Shown piece by piece: positions 12,447 through 40,808 of a DNA stretch of 64,000 bases. The translations under genes were made by a program, and so were the position numbers. Under the pieces are notes generated by a model that was not told the origin of the DNA, made no database searches, and was given only the letters and a program-made list of their open reading frames with translations. Every line of letters begins with the position of its first letter. Within the stretch, counting starts at the first letter, position 1. Source of the DNA: Balneolaceae bacterium. GTDB lineage: Bacteria; Bacteroidota; Rhodothermia; Balneolales; Balneolaceae. Location: positions 2,628,976-2,692,975 of the forward strand of contig CP051242.1 of NCBI GenBank assembly GCA_017795005.1, read 5' to 3'.

Positions 12447-13430
12447 CTATTTAATAAGAACCATTCTTTTAGTTAGGGTTCCTGAATTAGTTGTAATCCG
12501 GTAGATATAAATGCCTGAGTTTAGGTTACTAGCATTGAACTTAACATTATGAATACCTTTGGACATTCTTTCGTCAGTTAATACTGATATTCTTTTCCCA
12601 AGCATATCAAAAATCTCAAGTTTCACATCTAATGCTTCATTTAAGGTAAATGAAATATTTGTTGTTGGGTTGAACGGATTTGGATAATTCTGTGCAAGCT
12701 CAAATGGATATACTTTTTCTTCTTTGGTTTCTGTTATACCGGGATTTATTTTAGAAGTATTCCCATCGGTGTCTCCTGAACTAAGACTGGAAAAGTAATA
12801 GGATCCATTGTTTGAAGCTGATTCATTGTACAGAACTATTTCACTTGGAGTATGCTGAGTCTGGTATAGGCTTACCTTTGACTGCCAGTTATCTGCTGAT
12901 GTATACGCCAGCACAAATTCATCGTACCCGTCTCCGTTGTAATCCCCATGGGTCATCGCTGTGACTTTCCAGTAGTTACTGGTCCAAATACCCGTTAATG
13001 CCCCTGATGTGGATGTCTCATCAAGCTTATCCCCCCATTTACTTGCCAAAAGGCCACCAGGAGTTTCATCCTCCATCTTATATCTGTAGTAGTCTCCCGA
13101 TGCATCTTTAATTTTAGTCGCTTGTAACTCATCAAAACCGTCCCCATCGGTGTCTCCTGAACTAAGACTGGAAAAGTAATAGGATCCATTGTTTGAAGCT
13201 GATTCATTGTACAGAACTATTTCACTTGGAGTATGCTGAGTCTGGTATAGGCTTACCTTTGACTGCCAGTTATCTGCTGATGTATACGCCAGCACAAATT
13301 CATCGTACCCGTCTCCGTTGTAATCCCCATGGGTCATCGCTGTGACTTTCCAGTAGTTACTGGTCCAAATACCCGTTAATGCCCCTGATGTGGATGTCTC
13401 ATCAAGCTTATCCCCCCATTTACTTGCCAA
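12447..13430 (-). pseudogene. C-terminal part of frameshifted secreted protein, with type IX sorting domain
   Basis: This frame continues the 13376-15301 gene after a 1-bp loss. It holds the rest of repeat 2, all of repeat 3 and a linker, then a C-terminal domain of about 85 residues with NYPNPFNPTTNISF, FDMLGKRISVL, LNSGIYIYRI and a final KRMVLIK. This is the Por/type IX secretion sorting domain, which directs cargo through the SprA-containing translocon; sprA is encoded at 43916-51184. The reading frame as written starts inside a repeat and has no signal peptide, so it is not an independent gene. Either the deletion is real and the product loses its sorting signal, or it is an assembly error in near-identical repeats. 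Confidence 0.85.
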
Positions 13431-13887
13431 AAGGCCACCAGAGTTTCATCCTCCATCTTATATCTGTAGTAGTCTCCCGATGCATCTTTAATTTTAGTCG
13501 CTTGTAACTCATCAAAACCGTCCCCATCGGTGTCTCCTGAACTAAGACTGGAAAAGTAATAGGATCCATTGTTTGAAGCTGATTCATTGTACAGAACTAT
13601 TTCACTTGGAGTATGCTGAGTCTGGTATAGGCTTACCTTTGACTGCCAGTTATCTGCTGATGTATACGCCAGCACAAATTCATCGTACCCGTCTCCGTTG
13701 TAATCCCCATGGGTCATCGCTGTGACTTTCCAGTAGTTACTGGTCCAAATACCCGTTAATGCCCCTGATGTGGATGTCTCATCAAGCTTATCCCCCCATT
13801 TACTTGCCAAAAGGCCACCAGAAGTTTCATCCTCCATCTTATATCTGTAGTAGTCTCCCGATGCATCTTTAATTTTAGTCGCTTGTA
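12762..13887. repeat. Three tandem copies of a 381-bp coding repeat
   Basis: The same sequence recurs with offset 381 bp (GGCCACCA anchor at 13052 and 13433) and 380 bp (13433 to 13813). Copies are nearly identical at the DNA level, and each encodes about 127 residues with the Asp-rich FG-GAP/VCBS-like motifs GDYNGDGYDEF and GDTDGDGFDE. The shorter spacing reflects one base missing just after 13440 (CCAGAGTTTC, against CCAGGAGTTTC in copy 3 and CCAGAAGTTTC in copy 1). Such identity indicates recent duplication or gene conversion. Confidence 0.92.
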
Positions 13888-15301
13888 GTTCTTCGAATGG
13901 AATTGAAGCATCATCTTCATCCAACTCAAAGAGTTTTACTTCCCAGGGAGCGAAACTTTCTTTTATAATCCCATCCTTTACATCAATTTCATTGTAAGTG
14001 AGTGCTGTTAAACCTGAATTAATAGAAACTTCCTGGGCAATAGTTATAAATTTTAAAGGAGAAAAACTTTGACCTTGAGGGAGTGTTTTTAAACTTATCC
14101 ATCCATCATTAATTGTACTTCCACTTACATTTGCAGCAATTAACAGATACTTACCGTCTTCACCATGGTTAGAGCTTCTTTTTAATATATAATGAATGTC
14201 CTCATGAGCAATACCTGCATTATTATTTACAGATCCCCAGGTAAAAGAACCAATGGTTTCACCTTCTAAATACCCTGCCTTGATAAGACCAAGCTCTCTT
14301 ATAACAGGTTTTACATTATTAGTAATATGGGTAGGAACCGAACCGTAGTTGATATTCCTATTCGTATTACCACTACTATCAAGGCATGGGTAAGCATCTT
14401 TGTAACTATAGTACCATAGACCTGCAGCTTTATGTATCAATGAAGTGTAGGTTTGAAATCGTACTTCTTCAAGATCATTTTTTTTATCTGTACCATCACA
14501 AGACTCACTCTCCGTGTGAATACTTAATACCATTTGGGAATTTGATTTACCATCTATTAAATCATCTATGGTTTCAAGATGATTAGCAAAATCTTCATTG
14601 GTAAACTTATAGGTATCATTAAAAATGATATCAGCCGCATTATCATAATTATAAGTTGATGAAAAACTATAATTTATTCCATTTTCTAAAAAATTAGTTG
14701 TCAATACTTCAGTGTTATTTCTGAAGTCCCACGTATTATCATTGTGATCACCTAAAGTAATAACAAAAGGATGTTCTGTATCACTATCAATCTCTCTAAG
14801 TTCAGAAACCGCCCAGGCAAGTGAATCAGGGCGTACTGATTTAGACCACATTTTACTAGCAGTAGAAGTATCATGTGGTTCATCAGCAAGATAATAGCCA
14901 TAAAGAGCAGAATGATCCTTCACATACCCTACCACATCTTCTAAACGAGTCAAATCTCCTGAAGAAATATAATTCCTGCCGTCCCCGGGAAAATCATATT
15001 TACTGTTAGTATTATTCTCTGCTGTTCTAGGTAAACTAATAAGGACCTTTAAGGTCTCACTAGCAGCTGTATTAAGATAAATATTCAACCCGGATGAACT
15101 TATAATATCATATTCACTTGAAAACCAATATGACTGTACATGTGTAAATCCAATGTCAGCTATTTCGTCTAACGTAGTCCAAGTAGGCATACCTGTATCC
15201 CGTTGTTCTTGGTTTGCATGAAAAATCCCAATAGGAAACTCTTGTGCTTTGATGGTTAAGGTTAGAAAAAGAAAGCTTAGAATAGATATAAATTTCTTCA
15301 T
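13376..15301 (-). CDS. Secreted TIM-barrel (glycoside-hydrolase-like) protein with FG-GAP-like repeats, truncated by frameshift
   Basis: The signal peptide is MKKFISILSFLFLTLTIKA. Residues about 22-360 look like a (beta/alpha)8 glycoside-hydrolase-like domain: IGFTHVQSYW, then LYGYYLADEPH with a Glu where clan-A glycosidases have their acid/base, MVLSIHTESE and GLWYYSYKDAYPC. A beta domain follows (about 380-480), then the 127-residue FG-GAP-like repeats. Translation leaves the true frame at about 13441 in repeat 2 and ends after 27 unrelated residues. The intact gene would span 12447-15301 (about 950 residues). The substrate is unknown; no polysaccharide-utilisation genes are adjacent. Confidence 0.8.
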   Translation of the reverse strand: MKKFISILSFLFLTLTIKAQEFPIGIFHANQEQRDTGMPTWTTLDEIADIGFTHVQSYWFSSEYDIISSSGLNIYLNTAASETLKVLISLPRTAENNTNSKYDFPGDGRNYISSGDLTRLEDVVGYVKDHSALYGYYLADEPHDTSTASKMWSKSVRPDSLAWAVSELREIDSDTEHPFVITLGDHNDNTWDFRNNTEVLTTNFLENGINYSFSSTYNYDNAADIIFNDTYKFTNEDFANHLETIDDLIDGKSNSQMVLSIHTESESCDGTDKKNDLEEVRFQTYTSLIHKAAGLWYYSYKDAYPCLDSSGNTNRNINYGSVPTHITNNVKPVIRELGLIKAGYLEGETIGSFTWGSVNNNAGIAHEDIHYILKRSSNHGEDGKYLLIAANVSGSTINDGWISLKTLPQGQSFSPLKFITIAQEVSINSGLTALTYNEIDVKDGIIKESFAPWEVKLFELDEDDASIPFEELQATKIKDASGDYYRYKMEDETSGGLLASKWGDKLDETSTSGALTGIWTSNYWKVTAMTHGDYNGDGYDEFVLAYTSADNWQSKVSLYQTQHTPSEIVLYNESASNNGSYYFSSLSSGDTDGDGFDELQATKIKDASGDYYRYKMEDETLVAFWQVNGGISLMRHPHQGH

Positions 15302-25067: not shown

Positions 25068-25769
25068 ATGAAAGAAAATAATCCCATATTGGAAAACGTA
25101 GACATAGAACAAATTACTGCAGACGAAGTAGGCGATGCTCATTTTGGTTCTTCAGAACTGACACCAATCAGAAAAGATGCATTCGATCTCTCTGATTCAG
25201 AGAAAATTGAAACCATTCAAGAGCATTTTGCGAAAATTATGGAAACTCTTGGGCTTGATCTTACCGACGACAGCCTCAGGGGTACACCATACCGTGTTGC
25301 CAAGATGTATGTGAAAGAAATTTTCCATGGATTAGATCCTAAAAACAGACCTGAAGCGCGAACTTTTAGCAACGGATACGATTACAGTGACATGGTAATC
25401 GAGAAGAATATTCAGGTTACTTCTTTTTGTGAACATCACTTTCTTCCATTTATTGGGAAAGCACACGTAGCATATATTTCAAAAGGAAAAGTAATCGGTC
25501 TTTCTAAAATCAATCGACTCGTAGATTATTTTTCGCGCAGACCTCAGGTTCAGGAGCGACTAACGCTTCAAATTGCAGATGCATTATCAGAAGCAATGGA
25601 AACGGAAGACGTTGCTGTATTTATCGACAGCAAGCATTTATGTGTTTCTACCAGGGGAATAAAAGATACCACAAGTAGTACGATCACTTCTGAATTCAGA
25701 GGTGCCTTTAGAGAAAAGGAAACACAACAAAAATTTATTGATTTTATTAAAGCTGAAACTCAGTTCTAA
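25068..25769 (+). CDS. folE: GTP cyclohydrolase I (type IA)
   Basis: A 233-residue enzyme converting GTP to 7,8-dihydroneopterin triphosphate, the first step of tetrahydrofolate synthesis. Zinc ligands C121 and H124 (TSFCEHHFLPF) and C192 (HLCVSTRGIKD) are present, with GKVIGLSKINRLVDYFSRRPQ for substrate binding. The N-terminal 40 residues are an unconserved acidic extension. It precedes a Tat-exported glycosylasparaginase and cutC on the same strand, but the 36-bp gap does not prove an operon. Confidence 0.95.
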   Translation: MKENNPILENVDIEQITADEVGDAHFGSSELTPIRKDAFDLSDSEKIETIQEHFAKIMETLGLDLTDDSLRGTPYRVAKMYVKEIFHGLDPKNRPEARTFSNGYDYSDMVIEKNIQVTSFCEHHFLPFIGKAHVAYISKGKVIGLSKINRLVDYFSRRPQVQERLTLQIADALSEAMETEDVAVFIDSKHLCVSTRGIKDTTSSTITSEFRGAFREKETQQKFIDFIKAETQF

Positions 25770-25805
25770 TAATGTAAATCTTTACTAATCATCTAAATTA
25801 AAAGG

Positions 25806-26768
25806 ATGGGAACACGTAGAGACTTTTTAAAACTGACGGGATTGGCTGGTACTTCAGCTATGGTTCCATCAGTATTTTCGGGGATAAAAAAAACAACTAA
25901 ACCAATTGTACTTTCCACCTGGGATCATGGTGTTACTGCGAATAAGGTTTCCTGGGACATTCTAAGTAAAAATGGAACTGCCTTAGATGCTGTGGAACAA
26001 GGTGTTCGAAAAGTAGAATCAAATCCCAAAGGAACAACCGTAGGGATTGGTGGAAGTCCTGACAGAGATGGCTTTGTTACCCTCGATGCCTGCATCATGA
26101 ATCATAAAAATGAATGCGGTTCCGTGGCATTTCTCCAAAATATTGAACATCCCATTTCCGTAGCCCGAAAAGTGATGGAAGAAACTCAACATGTTATGCT
26201 TGTTGGCGAAGGTGCTTCTCAATTTGCTCAGGAACAGGGATTTAAAAGCAAGGATCTACTCACTGAAGAATCAAAGAAAGCCTGGGAAAAGTGGCTTGAA
26301 ACCTCAGAATATGAGCCAGTGGTAAATATCGAAAACCACGATACCATAGCTTCGATTGCACTAGATGCCCAGGGAAATTTAGCCGGTGCCTGCACAACCA
26401 GTGGAATGGCGTATAAAATGCACGGCAGAGTCGGGGACTCCCCTATTATCGGAGCCGGACTTTTTGTGGATAATGAAGTTGGAGCAGCATGTGGAACCGG
26501 ACTTGGTGAAGCAATAATCCGCACTGCCGGAAGCACCATTATTGTTGAAATGATGCGAAACGGTATTTCTCCTCAGGATGCATGTAAAGCTGCTGTAGAA
26601 CGAATCATCGAAAAGCATGATGACTTAACTAATGTTCAGGTTGGATATCTCGCAATAAACAAAAATGGCGAGTATGGTGGCTACAGTGTGTATGATGGGT
26701 TTACCTATGCCATTCGCTCTGATGAAGAAAACGAATACCTGTCATCTGAATTTAAAATTAGTCAGTAA
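25806..26768 (+). CDS. N4-(beta-N-acetylglucosaminyl)-L-asparaginase (glycosylasparaginase)
   Basis: A 320-residue Ntn-hydrolase. The N-terminus MGTRRDFLKLTGLAGTSAM is a twin-arginine signal, so it is probably exported folded. The precursor should self-cleave before T180 in ENHDTIASIALD, exposing the nucleophilic Thr. GRVGDSPIIGAGLFVDNEVG and GTGLGEAIIRTAGS are the substrate-binding motifs. It splits the GlcNAc-Asn linkage of N-glycopeptides. The stop overlaps the cutC start (TAATG). Confidence 0.93.
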   Translation: MGTRRDFLKLTGLAGTSAMVPSVFSGIKKTTKPIVLSTWDHGVTANKVSWDILSKNGTALDAVEQGVRKVESNPKGTTVGIGGSPDRDGFVTLDACIMNHKNECGSVAFLQNIEHPISVARKVMEETQHVMLVGEGASQFAQEQGFKSKDLLTEESKKAWEKWLETSEYEPVVNIENHDTIASIALDAQGNLAGACTTSGMAYKMHGRVGDSPIIGAGLFVDNEVGAACGTGLGEAIIRTAGSTIIVEMMRNGISPQDACKAAVERIIEKHDDLTNVQVGYLAINKNGEYGGYSVYDGFTYAIRSDEENEYLSSEFKISQ

Positions 26769-27466
26769 TGATCCTGGAATGGTCGATTGAATCGATCGAA
26801 GAAATGGAGTATGCCTCTCAACTCGGAATTAAAAGAGTTGAATTATGTTCTTCTCTTGAATATGGTGGGTTAACTCCTGCTTATGGAGTTATTAAAAAAT
26901 GCGCTCAAATTAAAGAGGTTGAATTACATGTAATGATCCGTCCCCGCCCCGGTGATTTCGAATATTCTGAAAAAGAAATCGAAATCATGTGTTCAGATAT
27001 ACAAAATGCTGCTGATCTTGGAGCAAAAGGAGTTGTGTTTGGAGTTCTGGATCAACAATTCAATATTCAAAAAGAGCAACTTAAGCGCTTAACTGAACTA
27101 AGCTCTTCCCTTGGACTTGAAATTACTTTTCACAGAGCTTTTGATTTTATTTCCTCTCCTTTTGAAGCATTGGAAGAGCTAATCGAAGCAGGTGTTCATA
27201 GACTTTTAACGTCCGGACAACAATCAAAGGCTATAGATGGACTTCCTTTAATCAAAAAATTAATCGCCAAAGCAAACGGAAGAATTGAAATTATGGCGGG
27301 GGCAGGAATAAATGCAATAAACGCACAACATTTTCAGGGGATCGGACTTAGCGCGATCCATTGTACTGCCCGCAGGAAAGTAGCTCAAATGGATAACTTT
27401 TACATGGGTTCTGTGTATGCACCATATGTAGAAAAAATAAAATCAATCCTAGCTATTTTGAACTGA
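26768..27466 (+). CDS. cutC: Copper homeostasis protein CutC
   Basis: A 232-residue TIM-barrel protein of the CutC family: KRVELCSSLEYGGLTPAYGV, VHVMIRPRPGDFEYS-like HVMIRPRPGDF, ITFHRAFD, and RLLTSGQ near the C-terminal half. It is cytoplasmic. The family is linked to copper tolerance, but its biochemical role is unsettled. It is translationally coupled to the glycosylasparaginase gene by a 1-base stop/start overlap, an association that does not itself suggest a copper function. Confidence 0.92.
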   Translation: MILEWSIESIEEMEYASQLGIKRVELCSSLEYGGLTPAYGVIKKCAQIKEVELHVMIRPRPGDFEYSEKEIEIMCSDIQNAADLGAKGVVFGVLDQQFNIQKEQLKRLTELSSSLGLEITFHRAFDFISSPFEALEELIEAGVHRLLTSGQQSKAIDGLPLIKKLIAKANGRIEIMAGAGINAINAQHFQGIGLSAIHCTARRKVAQMDNFYMGSVYAPYVEKIKSILAILN

Positions 27467-27550
27467 ATCTGAACGAAATATCATTCAGATTTATTCCACT
27501 TTTAACCGTATTTTAAGGCTCTTTGCCGGAAATTTTAAAACCGTGATTAC

Positions 27551-29017
27551 GTGTCGGAAAAGAATTCTTCAACACTACAGATTTACAACACACTTTCAAG
27601 AAGTAAAGAAACTTTTGAACCTATAAATGCCCCACATGTTGGGATGTATGTATGCGGACCAACTGTGTATGGTGATGCGCATTTAGGACATGCTAAAAGT
27701 TATGTTTCTTTTGATGTTGTGCTCCGTTATCTCCGCTATCTTGGATATAAAGTGCGGTATGTCCAGAATATCACCGATGTGGGACATTTGGTTGGGGATG
27801 GAGAAGAAGGTGAAGACAAACTCGCTAAGAAAGCCAGATTGGAACAGGTTGATCCCATGCAAGTTGCTGAAAAGTATACCTACACGTATTTCAGGGATAT
27901 GGATGCACTGAATGTACTTCGCCCTGATATTGCTCCGCGTGCTACCGGTCATATTCCCGAACAAATCGCTATGATTAAGAAACTCATTGAAAAAGGTCAT
28001 GCCTATAATGTGGATGGCAATGTGTATTTCGATGTGAGTTCAAATCCTGATTACGGAAAGTTGAGCGGCCGGAATGTAGAGGAGTCCGAAGCGGGAACCA
28101 GAGTTGAAACCGCATCCGACAAAAAAGATCCGAAGGATTTCGCTCTTTGGAAGAAAGCCGATGACAATCACCTGATGAAATGGGATTCACCCTGGGGAGT
28201 CGGGTATCCGGGTTGGCATATCGAATGTTCGGTGATGAGTACTAAATACCTTGGCGAAAGTTTTGATATTCACGGCGGCGGACTGGAAAATCAGTTTCCG
28301 CATCATGAATGTGAAATTGCACAATCAGAATGTGCCCATGATGCTCAGTTTGTGAAATACTGGATGCATAACAACATGGTAACTCTGGAAGGCCAGAAAA
28401 TGGGGAAATCGCTTGGCAATGCGATTAATCTGGAAGAGTTCTTTACAGGGAATCATAAGCTGTTAACCCGTGCATGGGATCCACAGGTAATTCGATTCTT
28501 CCTTCTTCAAAGTCATTACAGAAGTACAACCGATTTCTCTGAAGAAGCCTTGGAAGCCGCCGAAAATGGGTTAAAGAACCTCCATTCGATGATTACCACC
28601 ATTGAAAAAGCAGAACCCGGAACCGGTGATGCTTTTGATATTGAGCAATTTAAAGCTTCGTTTGAGGAAGTGATGAACGATGATTTCAACTCGGCAATGG
28701 CGATTGCGGTTCTCTTTGAAAACCTGAAGGAAATCAGAAAACAGATCAATGCAAATCAGGCTCCGTCTAATCTGGGCATGCTGAAAGTATATCTGCACAC
28801 AGTAGTGGAAGAAGTGTTGGGAATCTGGCCAAATAATGCTGGTGGTTCCGGCAATGGCGAACTGACTTCCGGTCTGGTTGAATTGCTGATTGAAATCAGA
28901 AAGGATGCACGGACAAATAAAGATTTTCCTCTCTCGGATAAAATCCGGGACGATTTAAAGGAACTGGGTGTGCAGTTGATGGACGGAAAAGACGGCACTA
29001 CCTTCAGTATTGACTGA
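27551..29017 (+). CDS. cysS: Cysteinyl-tRNA synthetase
   Basis: A 488-residue class I synthetase charging tRNA-Cys. It has [20 protein letters not shown] (zinc Cys and HIGH-type motif), [11 protein letters not shown], the zinc-ligand region [12 protein letters not shown], and KMGKSLGN as the KMSKS loop. The C-terminal DALR-like anticodon region ends about residue 480. The start is GTG at 27551 ([17 protein letters not shown]). Its stop overlaps the yidD start (TGATG). Confidence 0.96.
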
Positions 29018-29277
29018 TGAACGCGTTGAAATTCATATTCAGCAAATTGATTATTGGACTCGTACGATTTTACCAGTTGGCGATTTCCCCATGGTTGGGA
29101 AGCAGCTGCAGGTACTCCCCCACTTGTTCGCACTACATGATTGAAGCGGTGAACGAATGGGGACCATTAAAAGGATTCTGGTTGGGAATCAAACGGATTG
29201 GCCGGTGTCACCCCTGGGGCGGCGATGGGTATGATCCTGTTCCTGAGAATCCTGATAGGAAGAAATTGAAATCATGA
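29017..29277 (+). CDS. yidD: Membrane protein insertion efficiency factor YidD
   Basis: An 86-residue protein with an amphipathic N-terminal helix and the family core [40 protein letters not shown] and [17 protein letters not shown]. It assists YidC-dependent insertion of inner-membrane proteins. It is coupled to cysS by a 1-base stop/start overlap rather than sitting in the usual rnpA-yidC region. Confidence 0.95.
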
Positions 29278-29278
29278 A

Positions 29279-29354
29279 GTCATTTTGAGCGAAAGCGAAG
29301 AATCTACACAGCTTAGTAATTGTGCAGATCCTTAGGAAGTATCCTCAGGATGAC
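29279..29354. repeat. Intergenic repeat bounded by GTCAT...ATGAC
   Basis: The unit begins GTCATTTTGAGCGAAAGCGA and ends CCTCAGGATGAC. Inside are hairpins CACA...TGTG and ATCCTTAGGA...TCCTCAGGAT. Partial relatives with GTCATTCCTGCGAAG or GTCATTGCGAGCTGAGCGAA begin at about 29945, 32346 and 55349. Confidence 0.6.
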
Positions 29355-29365
29355 AATAAAAAAAC

Positions 29366-29410
29366 ACAATTAACGAATAACGATTCACGAAAATGTTATT
29401 CGTTAATTGT
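29366..29410. repeat. Perfect 16-bp inverted repeat
   Basis: ACAATTAACGAATAAC (29366-29381) is the exact reverse complement of GTTATTCGTTAATTGT (29395-29410). It lies immediately upstream of hisI and resembles the 24924-24982 element. Confidence 0.7.
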
Positions 29411-29426
29411 TATTCGTAAGCTATTA

Positions 29427-29912
29427 ATGATGAAAGAAATAAATTTTAAGAAAAGAACCTCCATCTATCAGGTAGAAGAAGAAAAAGACCTAGCGCCTAA
29501 ATTTCAGGAAGACGGATTAATTCCTGTAGTCACTACCGATTACACCTCTGGTGAACTACTTATGCACGGCTACATGAATGAAGAAGCTCTAAAGAAAACC
29601 ATTGAGCTGGGCGAAGCCGTGTATTACAGTCGCAGCCGAGAAACTCTATGGCACAAAGGAGCGACTTCAGGATTAACTCAGATCGTAAAAGAAATGCGCA
29701 TCGACGACGACCAGGATTGTGTGTGGCTTCGTGTGGAAGTACAAGGTAATGGAGCCAGTTGTCATGTAGGCTACCGCTCCTGCTTCTACCGTAGCGTACC
29801 TACAGGTAAAGACTTCTTTGAAAAAGACGGCGAACTCGCTTTTGAGGAATCCGAAAAGGTCTTCGATCCTGAAGAAGTCTACGGAGATGCCCCGAATCCT
29901 ACGAAGTTATAG
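29427..29912 (+). CDS. hisI: Phosphoribosyl-AMP cyclohydrolase
   Basis: A 161-residue enzyme of histidine biosynthesis that opens the adenine ring of PR-AMP. It carries [14 protein letters not shown], the [15 protein letters not shown] signature, [13 protein letters not shown], and [11 protein letters not shown], with the metal-binding Asp and Cys residues. It has no HisE (PR-ATP pyrophosphatase) domain. The upstream open frame to 29322 is made of repeat sequence, so I start at the tandem ATGATG 29427/29430. No other his genes are in the window. Confidence 0.93.
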
Positions 29913-38002: not shown

Positions 38003-38034
38003 AAGAAAAATCAAATTGAAAAGTTTGATTTCTT
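38003..38034 (-). terminator. Terminator-like hairpin after the GIN pseudogene
   Basis: On the minus strand, AAGAAATCAAA and TTTGATTTTTCTT form an AT-rich stem around an 8-base loop, with the second arm running into a T run. It overlaps the last codons of the pseudogene. Confidence 0.5.
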
Positions 38035-38590
38035 AGTCTGCTTTTTTGGCAAGTAAATTTTGTCCTGAGTATTTACTTTCTATATAACTTGCATTCTGGT
38101 AAAGACTAATCCACTCGTTATTTGTATGAACATTACTTAAATCAGTATGTCCATTTATTGATGTAAGATAAATGTTATCCAGTGTTCCTGACACTGTTAC
38201 CTTTGCAGCTGGATTCAATATTCTAAAATTTTTCTGATCTAATCAAACGATATAATAGTTTCCTTTTCCTCCACTTATCAATGAATTAAATCCAGTTGTT
38301 TCTACTACAATTCTTGTAGGGATTTCATTGGATGCCTCATCACTATAAGAAAATGAAAGTCTGTTTTCTTCTTCCTGAATTGTGAAAGCATGCTGAGCTT
38401 CTTTACTACCCTGAACCAATATATTATTACGGTTACTTTGAATAATGATTACTTCGGTATTAATCTGAGACTGGAGCTCAGTAAATTCAGAAATAGTATA
38501 ATTTTTGAGTATATCTGTTGTTTGAGCACCGGCATTTAAAGAAAGTAAAACTGCAAAAACAGTGAGAGTGATTTTGGTAAGATATTTCAT
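38033..38590 (-). pseudogene. Secreted head-GIN (DUF2807) protein interrupted by an in-frame TGA
   Basis: Start at ATG 38590 (MKYLTKITLTVFAVLLSLNAGA signal, GAGG upstream). The frame reads as a GIN-domain protein until TGA at 38243-38245, then continues in the same frame with no other stop for 69 codons (NPAAKVTVSGTLDNIYLTS, NASYIESKYSGQNL) to TAA at 38033. A single point mutation would restore it. Its beta-strand pattern resembles the GIN half of the DoxX fusion. It is either a recent pseudogene, a sequencing error or, less likely, a read-through. Confidence 0.75.
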
Positions 38591-38739
38591 AGCGAACCTC
38601 ATTATTTGATTTTGATTACCCACAAATATCTACTCAAATCAAACGGAAATCGGCTCAGTTTAATTTGAGACGTATCGAATCAGCATTTTGAGACCACTAT
38701 GAACTCCCTTACGGGATTAAGAAGAAAAGTTTAGGTTCA

Positions 38740-39042
38740 CTAAATATATTTATCCCCTCTTACCACTTTAACAGGATATGCATATGCGATAACTGAGTAG
38801 TTTTCAAAGTAAACATCTGCTATAAAGTCAATGATAGCATTACCAACATCTTTACTGACTACCACTTCTATCTTAACATTTTTCCCTTCAAAATCACTGG
38901 CTCTTAGTCCTCGAGATCCTTCCCCGGTAGTATCGGTTAAGGTATACCCTTTAGCTCCGAGCTCTTTTAGTTTTTCAATTATATCATCCCTGAAATATCG
39001 TTCCGTGATGATAGTAACCAAGAATAATTCTGTTAATTTCAT
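38740..39042 (-). CDS. sbtB: PII-like regulator of bicarbonate transporter (SbtB-type)
   Basis: A 100-residue PII-fold protein starting MKLTELFLVTIITERYFRDD, with a flexible loop TTGEGSRGLRASDFEGK at the T-loop position and VIAYAYPVKVV near the end. It starts 1 bp after the sbtA-type gene, the pairing known from cyanobacteria, where SbtB binds adenine nucleotides and c-di-AMP and controls SbtA. It lacks the Cys-containing C-terminal extension of cyanobacterial SbtB. It is not GlnB/GlnK: there is no ammonium transporter nearby and no Tyr in the canonical T-loop uridylylation site. Confidence 0.85.
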   Translation of the reverse strand: MKLTELFLVTIITERYFRDDIIEKLKELGAKGYTLTDTTGEGSRGLRASDFEGKNVKIEVVVSKDVGNAIIDFIADVYFENYSVIAYAYPVKVVRGDKYI

Positions 39043-39043
39043 G

Positions 39044-40000
39044 TCAACCTCCCATCCATTGTGCCATTATATAATAAAGCGGAATTCCGAGTGTAATGTT
39101 AAAAGGAAATGTAATTCCCAGTGATGCCGTCAGATACAGTGAAGGACTTGCTTTCGGAAGAGCAATCCTAACTGCGGCGGGAGCAGCGATATAGGATCCA
39201 CTGGAAACCATTGCTGCTAATACTGTTGCGCCTGCTATACTTAACCCGGATAATAATCCCAGCCAAACTGCCAGAAAACCGTGGAAAATTGGGATAATTA
39301 TTGCAAAGCCAAATAGGAAGAACCCTACTTTCTTTAAATCCTGTAGTCTTCGAGCTGTTACCATTCCCAATTCGAGTAGGAATAAAACTAAAGCTCCTTT
39401 AAACCCACTTACAAAAAATGGAGAAACCGCCTCAAATTTCACCGGTCCGGCGATATACCCAATAATCAATCCTCCAAGTAACAGAACGATACTACTACCA
39501 GTTACTACTTCGTGTAATGCTTTTTTGAAAGATCCCCCTCCATCACTTAGTAATTGAGGAATCATAAGTGCTACTATAATACCAGGAACTTCTAATAGAG
39601 CAACAAGGGTTGGCATAAAACCTTCCGATTCAATATTCAGTGATTCCAGATAACTAATCGCTGCTATGAAAGTAACTGCCGAAACAGACCCATAATGTGC
39701 CGCTATTGCAGAAGAATTGATCAAATCCATTTTGCCTAAATATCTGAGAACAGCAAATGCAATTAATGGTGTTATACAGCCTAAAAGAAGAGTCGCACCG
39801 GCAGGTAGCACAAACTCATTCATTGGTGTTTTACTTAATTCAACCCCACCTTTTAATCCTATAGCCAATAATAAATAGATAGAAAGTCCCTGATAGAGAG
39901 GTTTGGGAATTTCAAGGTCACTTTTTACAGCTTTGGCTAAAATACCGAGAACGAAAGCAAGTACTACCGGAGATGCAAAATTTGAGAGTAATGATTCCAT
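39044..40000 (-). CDS. sbtA: Sodium-dependent bicarbonate transporter, SbtA family
   Basis: A 318-residue membrane protein with about ten helices in two related halves, matching the SbtA (Sbt_1) family: LSIYLLLAIGLKGGVELS, AIAAHYGSVSAVTFIAAISY and MPTLVALLEVPGIIVALM in the first half, and AAMVSSGSYIAAPAAVRIAL in the second. SbtA imports bicarbonate with sodium across the inner membrane. It is transcribed with sbtB and diverges from the LCIB-like gene across 112 bp. I infer bicarbonate as substrate from the family and context. Confidence 0.88.
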   Translation of the reverse strand: MESLLSNFASPVVLAFVLGILAKAVKSDLEIPKPLYQGLSIYLLLAIGLKGGVELSKTPMNEFVLPAGATLLLGCITPLIAFAVLRYLGKMDLINSSAIAAHYGSVSAVTFIAAISYLESLNIESEGFMPTLVALLEVPGIIVALMIPQLLSDGGGSFKKALHEVVTGSSIVLLLGGLIIGYIAGPVKFEAVSPFFVSGFKGALVLFLLELGMVTARRLQDLKKVGFFLFGFAIIIPIFHGFLAVWLGLLSGLSIAGATVLAAMVSSGSYIAAPAAVRIALPKASPSLYLTASLGITFPFNITLGIPLYYIMAQWMGG

Positions 40001-40112
40001 TTAAATAAGATTAATTAAAAATCTGATAATTCCCGTTGTTTTGTATTTTCAAGATAGCATTAATTCGATTATACAGTTTTCTTCCGGAAAGATTTTTACG
40101 AAAAAATAAACT

Positions 40113-40808
40113 ATGTATCAAACAATCCAGAAACATTATCCTGACGCAGTCAGGATTACCGAACTAGAAACCAAAATTATTATTGATCTCGTTCAGAAAA
40201 AACTGGATTTAAAATCCACGATTTGGGCAACCTCATTTTGCAGCGACGAAGTAAATAATCTTTTCTCTCCATTCTATGATTTATTTGCTGGTCCCGGACC
40301 TTTTATGCTGGGTGGAATTTCGGGCCTTCCTTTTTCGGGTATCACCGGAATGAAAGCTTTTCTTAGTCATGCACCTTCGCATGGAGCTGTACTTATTTTA
40401 TATGGTCCGCATATTGGTATTTCTGAAGATGGACAGATTGGCAAAGTGAATCGCCAGAACCAATTTGCCTCTTCTACTTGTTGTGGATCCTTAGTTGCAG
40501 CAGTAGAGTCTCTGAAGAAAGAAGAACATTTACCTATGAATAATCCATTGGATTATCAGCAGGCACGAGTGATAGAGCATTTGTACAATAAAAGAGAATC
40601 CATCATAGAAAGCGATTTCCCTTTAAAAGAAGCTACTGATGTTGCCTATCAGGAAATACATGATAAGCTGTATAATATTCTGAGAGCTATCAAACCACAG
40701 CTTACCGATTTAAAGCTGTATTTGATTGGCGGGATTGTAATTAATACAGATTGGGCAATAGAAGATTATTTTGAAATAAAAAACATTGAGTTTATTGAAC
40801 TTACTTAG
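40113..40808 (+). CDS. LCIB-like (theta-type) carbonic anhydrase
   Basis: A 231-residue soluble protein with the motifs of the limiting-CO2-inducible protein B family: WATSFCSDEVNNL, GPFMLGGISGLPFSGITG, FLSHAPSHGAVLILYGPHIGIS and SSTCCGSLVAAVES. In characterised LCIB proteins zinc is held by two Cys and one His; C43, H100 and C123 or C124 are the candidates here, with D45 and R114 as possible active-site partners. These enzymes interconvert CO2 and bicarbonate. It is divergent from sbtA-sbtB, so imported bicarbonate could be converted in the cytoplasm. It overlaps the convergent next gene by 4 bp. Confidence 0.87.
   Translation: MYQTIQKHYPDAVRITELETKIIIDLVQKKLDLKSTIWATSFCSDEVNNLFSPFYDLFAGPGPFMLGGISGLPFSGITGMKAFLSHAPSHGAVLILYGPHIGISEDGQIGKVNRQNQFASSTCCGSLVAAVESLKKEEHLPMNNPLDYQQARVIEHLYNKRESIIESDFPLKEATDVAYQEIHDKLYNILRAIKPQLTDLKLYLIGGIVINTDWAIEDYFEIKNIEFIELT

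Follow-up and report, generated by a model that had tools for sequence, protein, structure and literature searches.

The window, by which is meant the whole 64,000-nucleotide stretch of Balneolaceae bacterium DNA that was analysed, contains a compact locus of three genes (Table 1) in which the gene for an SbtA-family transporter is followed after 1 bp by that for its PII-like partner SbtB, and from which a gene for an LCIB-family carbonic anhydrase (CA) diverges. An ORF check found the genes at the positions, spacing and orientation given in the earlier note, and the family assignments made there agree with Pfam scores that are all far above the cut-off. The protein had also been called a 'theta' carbonic anhydrase; its membership of the LCIB family stands, but 'theta' is a loose label, fold and Pfam placing LCIB beside the beta-CAs. 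The region between the divergent genes is AT-rich and in part similar to the same region of the closest relative, G040, and no Zur-like box was found in it.

Table 1. Features of the SbtA, SbtB and LCIB locus, with positions counted from the first letter of the window.
Feature	Position	Strand	Length	Basis
SbtB, PII-like regulator of SbtA	38740-39042	-	100 aa	P-II 63 bits, PDB matches
SbtA, predicted Na+/HCO3- symporter	39044-40000	-	318 aa	Sbt_1 385 bits
Intergenic region, divergent SbtA/LCIB genes	40001-40112	no strand	112 bp	
LCIB-family carbonic anhydrase	40113-40808	+	231 aa	LCIB_C_CA 172 bits

A number of other features of the window deserve mention. Downstream of SbtB a DUF2807 gene (38033-38623) looks broken, with pieces of 126 aa and 61 aa compared to 174-188 aa in relatives, and a MerC-family gene lies at the window start (76-471). 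FolE (25068), CutC, CysS (27551) and HisI (29322) are found upstream of the module within 25068-29912, and a similar order also occurs beside LCIB in other Balneolaceae; the idea that FolE, CysS and HisI near Balneolaceae LCIB represent a Zur paralog set was set aside, and the arrangement is kept as a remark on synteny only. At 12447-15301 there are two overlapping ORFs with a common long near-identical repeat (DGFDELQATKIKDASGDYYRY...), and together they have the look of one secreted protein that a frameshift inside the repeats has cut in two.

The Sbt_1 profile match of SbtA covers model positions 1-308 of 308, and the only solid match in the PDB is Slr1512, at 31% identity. The HCO3- pocket of Slr1512 has been described as V113, S114, S324 and I326 (PMC12093963), to which V106, S107, S269 and I271 correspond, and docking has given S114, Y140, S324 and S327 as HCO3- ligands (PMC8352866), two of the four being kept and Y140 and S327 being replaced by V133 and A272. 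SbtA homologues have worked as HCO3- transporters in E. coli (PMC4275256), SbtA-like proteins at 24% identity were apparently no substitute for SbtA in cyanobacteria (PMC11890772), and SbtA has been reported before in a heterotroph, SAR11, with an anaplerotic suggestion (PMC10030771). SbtB finds its best PDB matches in the SbtB-type TTHA0516 (E 2.6e-26) and in cyanobacterial SbtBs. Judged by the published definitions of the R-loop and of R43xxR46 (PMC10117731), it retains the arginines at the base of the T-loop (SRGLR motif) and is without the C-terminal redox R-loop CGPxGC, the protein ending in VVRGDKYI, although this absence is not strictly defining because CGPxGC is kept in only some SbtB homologues. 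It is plausible from these residues that HCO3- is the substrate of SbtA and that SbtB gates it.

The best PDB relatives of the LCIB protein are 6kfs/PtLCIB4. Its AlphaFold model (pLDDT 93.5) compares with PtLCIB4 (5b5y) at a TM of 0.90 and with algal LCIB/LCIC at ~0.68, the beta-CAs coming next. Catalytic positions were taken from the names of the PDB mutants S47R and H88A together with alignments, by which S44 and H86 correspond to S47 and H88 of PtLCIB4; the Cys, Asp, His88 and Cys of PtLCIB4, which we take to be the catalytic residues, have as counterparts C43, D45, H86 and C124, all invariant or nearly so across 19 aligned relatives. The serine at position 44 agrees with active PtLCIB4 and not with the S47R mutant. 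A signal peptide was not seen in the protein, which is predicted to be cytosolic.

The genome that contains the window is complete (3.75 Mb) and has one SbtA and one LCIB. A heterotrophic setting had been proposed from the window, and it holds for the genome as a whole, in which there is no PF00016 match that would indicate RuBisCO or a RuBisCO-like protein, no DabA, alpha-CA, beta-CA or pyruvate carboxylase was found, and one PEP carboxylase, a bicarbonate-using enzyme, is present. The genome also encodes a hexapeptide protein that resembles gamma-CA and has its three histidines at the expected places, so that LCIB may not be the sole CA. RuBisCO matches in relatives are nearly all weak (RuBisCO-like), with strong ones only in G148 and G016; they were set aside as bearing on the window, there being none in its genome.

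In a sample of 245 genomes of the class, which includes incomplete MAGs in which absences are soft, LCIB was found in 47 and SbtA in 70. The two occur together in 12 genomes, and in the comparison of neighbourhoods that the earlier note had named as its check, where a lack of conserved linkage would have spoken against the module, they proved to be divergent neighbours in 11 of these, separated by 0.1-2.7 kb and either adjacent or with one or two genes in between. Co-occurrence was rejected as evidence since it is not above chance within the family (12 genomes, p 0.82), and for this reason it is linkage when both genes are present that counts, and this is well above chance. SbtA is lacking from 34 of the 46 Balneolaceae genomes that have LCIB. 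Maximum-likelihood analysis puts nine linked LCIBs, drawn from seven genera, into one group (95/87) that also holds two unlinked ones. In the same tree the LCIB of G003 clusters with linked LCIBs and apart from those of its genus-mates, and at least three changes of label are forced. A second, separate pairing is seen in G041 and G042 at another chromosomal site (cysS-yidD), and the pairing of SbtA and LCIB arose at least twice. At the same chromosomal site as in the window, genus g2 has LCIB alone and G034 has SbtAB without LCIB. No description of SbtA linked to LCIB was found in the open-access literature.

LCIB is not the only CA to accompany SbtA, some CA being found within ~3 kb of it in 20 of the 70 SbtA genomes. 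Nine further genomes, from the window's family and from other families of the class, have a beta-CA within that distance. It is of cytosolic type in G068, G097 and G164. The exported type, recognised by a signal peptide or lipoprotein start, occurs in G178, G217, G222 and G231 and as one of the two beta-CAs of G181, and that of G179 was classed as exported by similarity of position; the two types were split by score and length, and eight f1-type proteins were read directly. Exported beta-CAs near SbtA belong to genomes of the class that are more remote from the window's (L130, L132, L133, L134, L135). Among 92 genomes of family f1, LCIB (46 genomes) and cytosolic beta-CA (20 genomes) overlap in one genome where ~10 would be expected (Fisher p 4.7e-6, shared ancestry ignored), and exported beta-CA and LCIB do not exclude each other there (p 0.50, shared ancestry ignored). 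It appears that LCIB took over from the cytosolic beta-CA in Balneolaceae. Several small genomes of genus g19 (G080-G088), some of them incomplete MAGs, have SbtA with neither LCIB nor cytosolic beta-CA, as if SbtA alone were their bicarbonate supplier.

Between SbtA and LCIB, four genomes (G032, G036, G041, G042) carry a LysR regulator together with a Thermus-type isocitrate dehydrogenase and in G087 only the LysR is in between; this LysR is also found close to SbtA, with LCIB absent, in G019, G031, G045 and G068. Nine Balneolales loci have the LysR near SbtA (L065, L066, L068, L069, L070, L075, L076, L077, L080), and the isocitrate dehydrogenase is present in six of the nine. The closest PDB entry to the LysR is 5y2v, a 'Rubisco operon transcriptional regulator' (E 5.6e-73), followed by CmpR, and the isocitrate dehydrogenase is closest to 2d1c. 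The LysR is accordingly of the CcmR/CmpR type, which controls carbon uptake genes in cyanobacteria. An orthologue of it is absent from the window genome (best 26%). Our guess is that regulator and dehydrogenase are connected via 2-oxoglutarate sensing.

A rather different context was encountered when LCIB loci were collected from bacterial and archaeal genomes with one peptide pattern and the best 80 of 217 were used, these being mostly from Flavobacteriales, Cytophagales and Saprospiria. In these groups LCIB is accompanied by COG0523 GTPases, a regulator of the FUR family, MerC, DUF1826 and an FtsX permease rich in His. A search for shared palindromes brought out TGCAACNNNGTTGCA, which with at most one mismatch accompanies the LCIB operon at 26 of 56 non-Balneolota Bacteroidota loci among the best 80 of 217 and at none of 23 Balneolota loci, counts to which related species contribute non-independently; 40 palindromes with shuffled arms gave a mean of 0.05 and a maximum of 1 such locus. 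The same box also precedes the neighbouring COG0523, FUR and MerC genes. We infer that it is a putative Zur box and that LCIB belongs to a Zur-like zinc-scarcity regulon in most other Bacteroidota. An unknown protein of 165 aa is encoded downstream of LCIB at 19 of the loci L169-L229 (non-Balneolota Bacteroidota, within the best 80 of 217). Alternative CAs regulated by Zur are known, namely a gamma-CA in proteobacteria and YtiB in Bacillus (PMC2770081, PMC6103462), and no report of a Zur-regulated LCIB was found in the literature. A Zur box in the window was considered and rejected, TGCAACNNNGTTGCA having no match there beyond chance. The COG0523 cluster of the window genome sits elsewhere, without LCIB and without the box, and the idea that it might reveal some other box in common with LCIB was likewise discarded, no palindrome being found.

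An important consideration is what purpose such a locus would serve, and the probable answer is that SbtAB and LCIB supply dissolved inorganic carbon in a heterotroph and do not form a CO2-concentrating mechanism. Transport by SbtA, its inward direction, gating by SbtB, catalysis by LCIB and the physiological purpose are put forward here as predictions. SbtA would bring in HCO3- together with Na+ under the control of SbtB, acting through adenine-nucleotide binding, and the cytosolic LCIB-type enzyme would equilibrate the imported HCO3- with respiratory CO2; HCO3- would in this way be kept sufficient for PEP carboxylase and other carboxylases at low external CO2, and CO2 would likewise be kept available for the carboxylases that use it. 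A CO2-concentrating mechanism is argued against because RuBisCO is missing and a cytosolic CA would dissipate the bicarbonate pool; the HCO3- pool of such a mechanism is held in a CA-free cytosol, and here LCIB, by its predicted location, shares the cytosol beside SbtA. We count in favour of carbon supply the families and fold, the conserved residues, the linkage in 11 of 12 genomes, the repeated pairing, the beta-CA neighbours, the mutual exclusion of LCIB and cytosolic beta-CA, the CcmR/CmpR-type LysR, and a PEP carboxylase in a genome without RuBisCO, DabA, alpha-CA, beta-CA or pyruvate carboxylase. Against it we count the modest identity of SbtA to Slr1512, its two changed ligands and the precedent at 24% identity, as well as the many LCIB genomes without SbtA, the unremarkable co-occurrence and the gamma-CA-like protein. 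Precedents exist as well: non-autotrophs have a need for inorganic carbon of this kind, and in S. aureus and E. coli MpsAB and CA can each stand in for the other (PMC6689103, PMC8552792, PMC8567241), to which the activity of SbtA homologues in E. coli may be added (PMC4275256).

The same facts can be read in other ways. LCIB might be a mere housekeeping cytosolic CA with SbtAB as an independent neighbour at a favoured insertion site, which would explain why most Balneolaceae LCIB genomes have no SbtA, why either partner can occupy the site alone (LCIB in g2, SbtAB in G034) and why LCIB has seemingly replaced the cytosolic beta-CA; nevertheless the linkage in all but one of the co-occurring genomes, the pairing formed at cysS-yidD in G041 and G042 and the pairing of unrelated CAs with SbtA make this unlikely. 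There is slightly less reason to expect a role in pH or ion homeostasis, in which SbtA would import HCO3- with Na+ and LCIB would dehydrate it with consumption of protons, buffering the cytoplasm and not feeding carboxylases. A cytosolic CA next to an importer could be thought to suit fast HCO3-/CO2 exchange, but the LysR of the sister cassettes is of a type that regulates according to carbon status, PEP carboxylase is present and pyruvate carboxylase absent in the window genome, and in alkaline water such a flow would push an already high pH higher.

Zinc economy offers a further explanation, namely that the LCIB of the window serves mainly at times of zinc scarcity, as seems to be so in other Bacteroidota, where the Zur-like box and the COG0523, FUR, MerC and DUF1826 neighbours are found; with the box absent from the window LCIB and the 23 Balneolota loci and the COG0523 cluster situated apart from LCIB, we regard this as very unlikely for the window. 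Finally, SbtA could export HCO3- or formate and so clear respiratory CO2 hydrated by LCIB. The Sbt protein SO_3758 of the heterotroph Shewanella influences tolerance of formate, and efflux is the reading preferred by the authors of that study (PMC12093963), but Na+ symport on an inward Na+ gradient implies import and the exported beta-CAs beside SbtA elsewhere fit uptake, leaving export highly improbable. It is thus the supply of inorganic carbon that we prefer. A broader reading joins it to the zinc data: LCIB of Bacteroidota would be a Zur-controlled zinc-scarcity CA that in Balneolaceae escaped Zur control, took the place of the cytosolic beta-CA and repeatedly joined SbtAB, yielding a mobile carbon-supply cassette for heterotrophs that consists of SbtAB and LCIB with or without the CcmR-type LysR and isocitrate dehydrogenase. 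This is offered tentatively, at a little under even chances.

Comparison with known systems is instructive. The locus resembles cyanobacterial Slr1512/Slr1513 in that a single operon encodes both the transporter and its PII-like regulator, in the pocket serines and T-loop arginines and, in sister cassettes, in an adjoining CcmR/CmpR-type LysR; it differs in the sequence of SbtA, at 31% identity, in an SbtB without the R-loop, in two altered docked ligands, and in that a cytosolic CA adjoins and RuBisCO is absent. With algal and diatom LCIB/LCIC and PtLCIB4 it shares the fold, the catalytic residues and S44, but it is bacterial, has no plastid or pyrenoid and is adjoined by a bicarbonate transporter. 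The purpose proposed for MpsAB/DabAB with CA (PMC8567241, PMC8552792, PMC6689103) is the same, HCO3- for carboxylations in non-autotrophs, whereas the proteins are different, DabA is absent, and transporter and CA here share one locus. As for the Zur-regulated alternative CAs, the likeness lies in a CA gene under a zinc-scarcity regulator with COG0523 and DUF1826, applies to LCIB loci outside Balneolota only, and concerns LCIB rather than the gamma/beta class of gamma-CA and YtiB; it is not encountered at the window locus.

SbtAB and LCIB have been studied almost only within photosynthetic carbon concentration, and here they recur as a unit in bacteria without RuBisCO CO2 fixation. In marine Bacteroidota, where LCIB seems to be under Zur control, the enzyme hints at a class of CA linked to zinc, one that could be of importance in seawater poor in this metal. 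In the Balneolaceae, a cytosolic CA placed where a CO2-concentrating mechanism could not tolerate one points to a wider role for these proteins, that of feeding the carboxylations of heterotrophs, and such a role is testable in E. coli.
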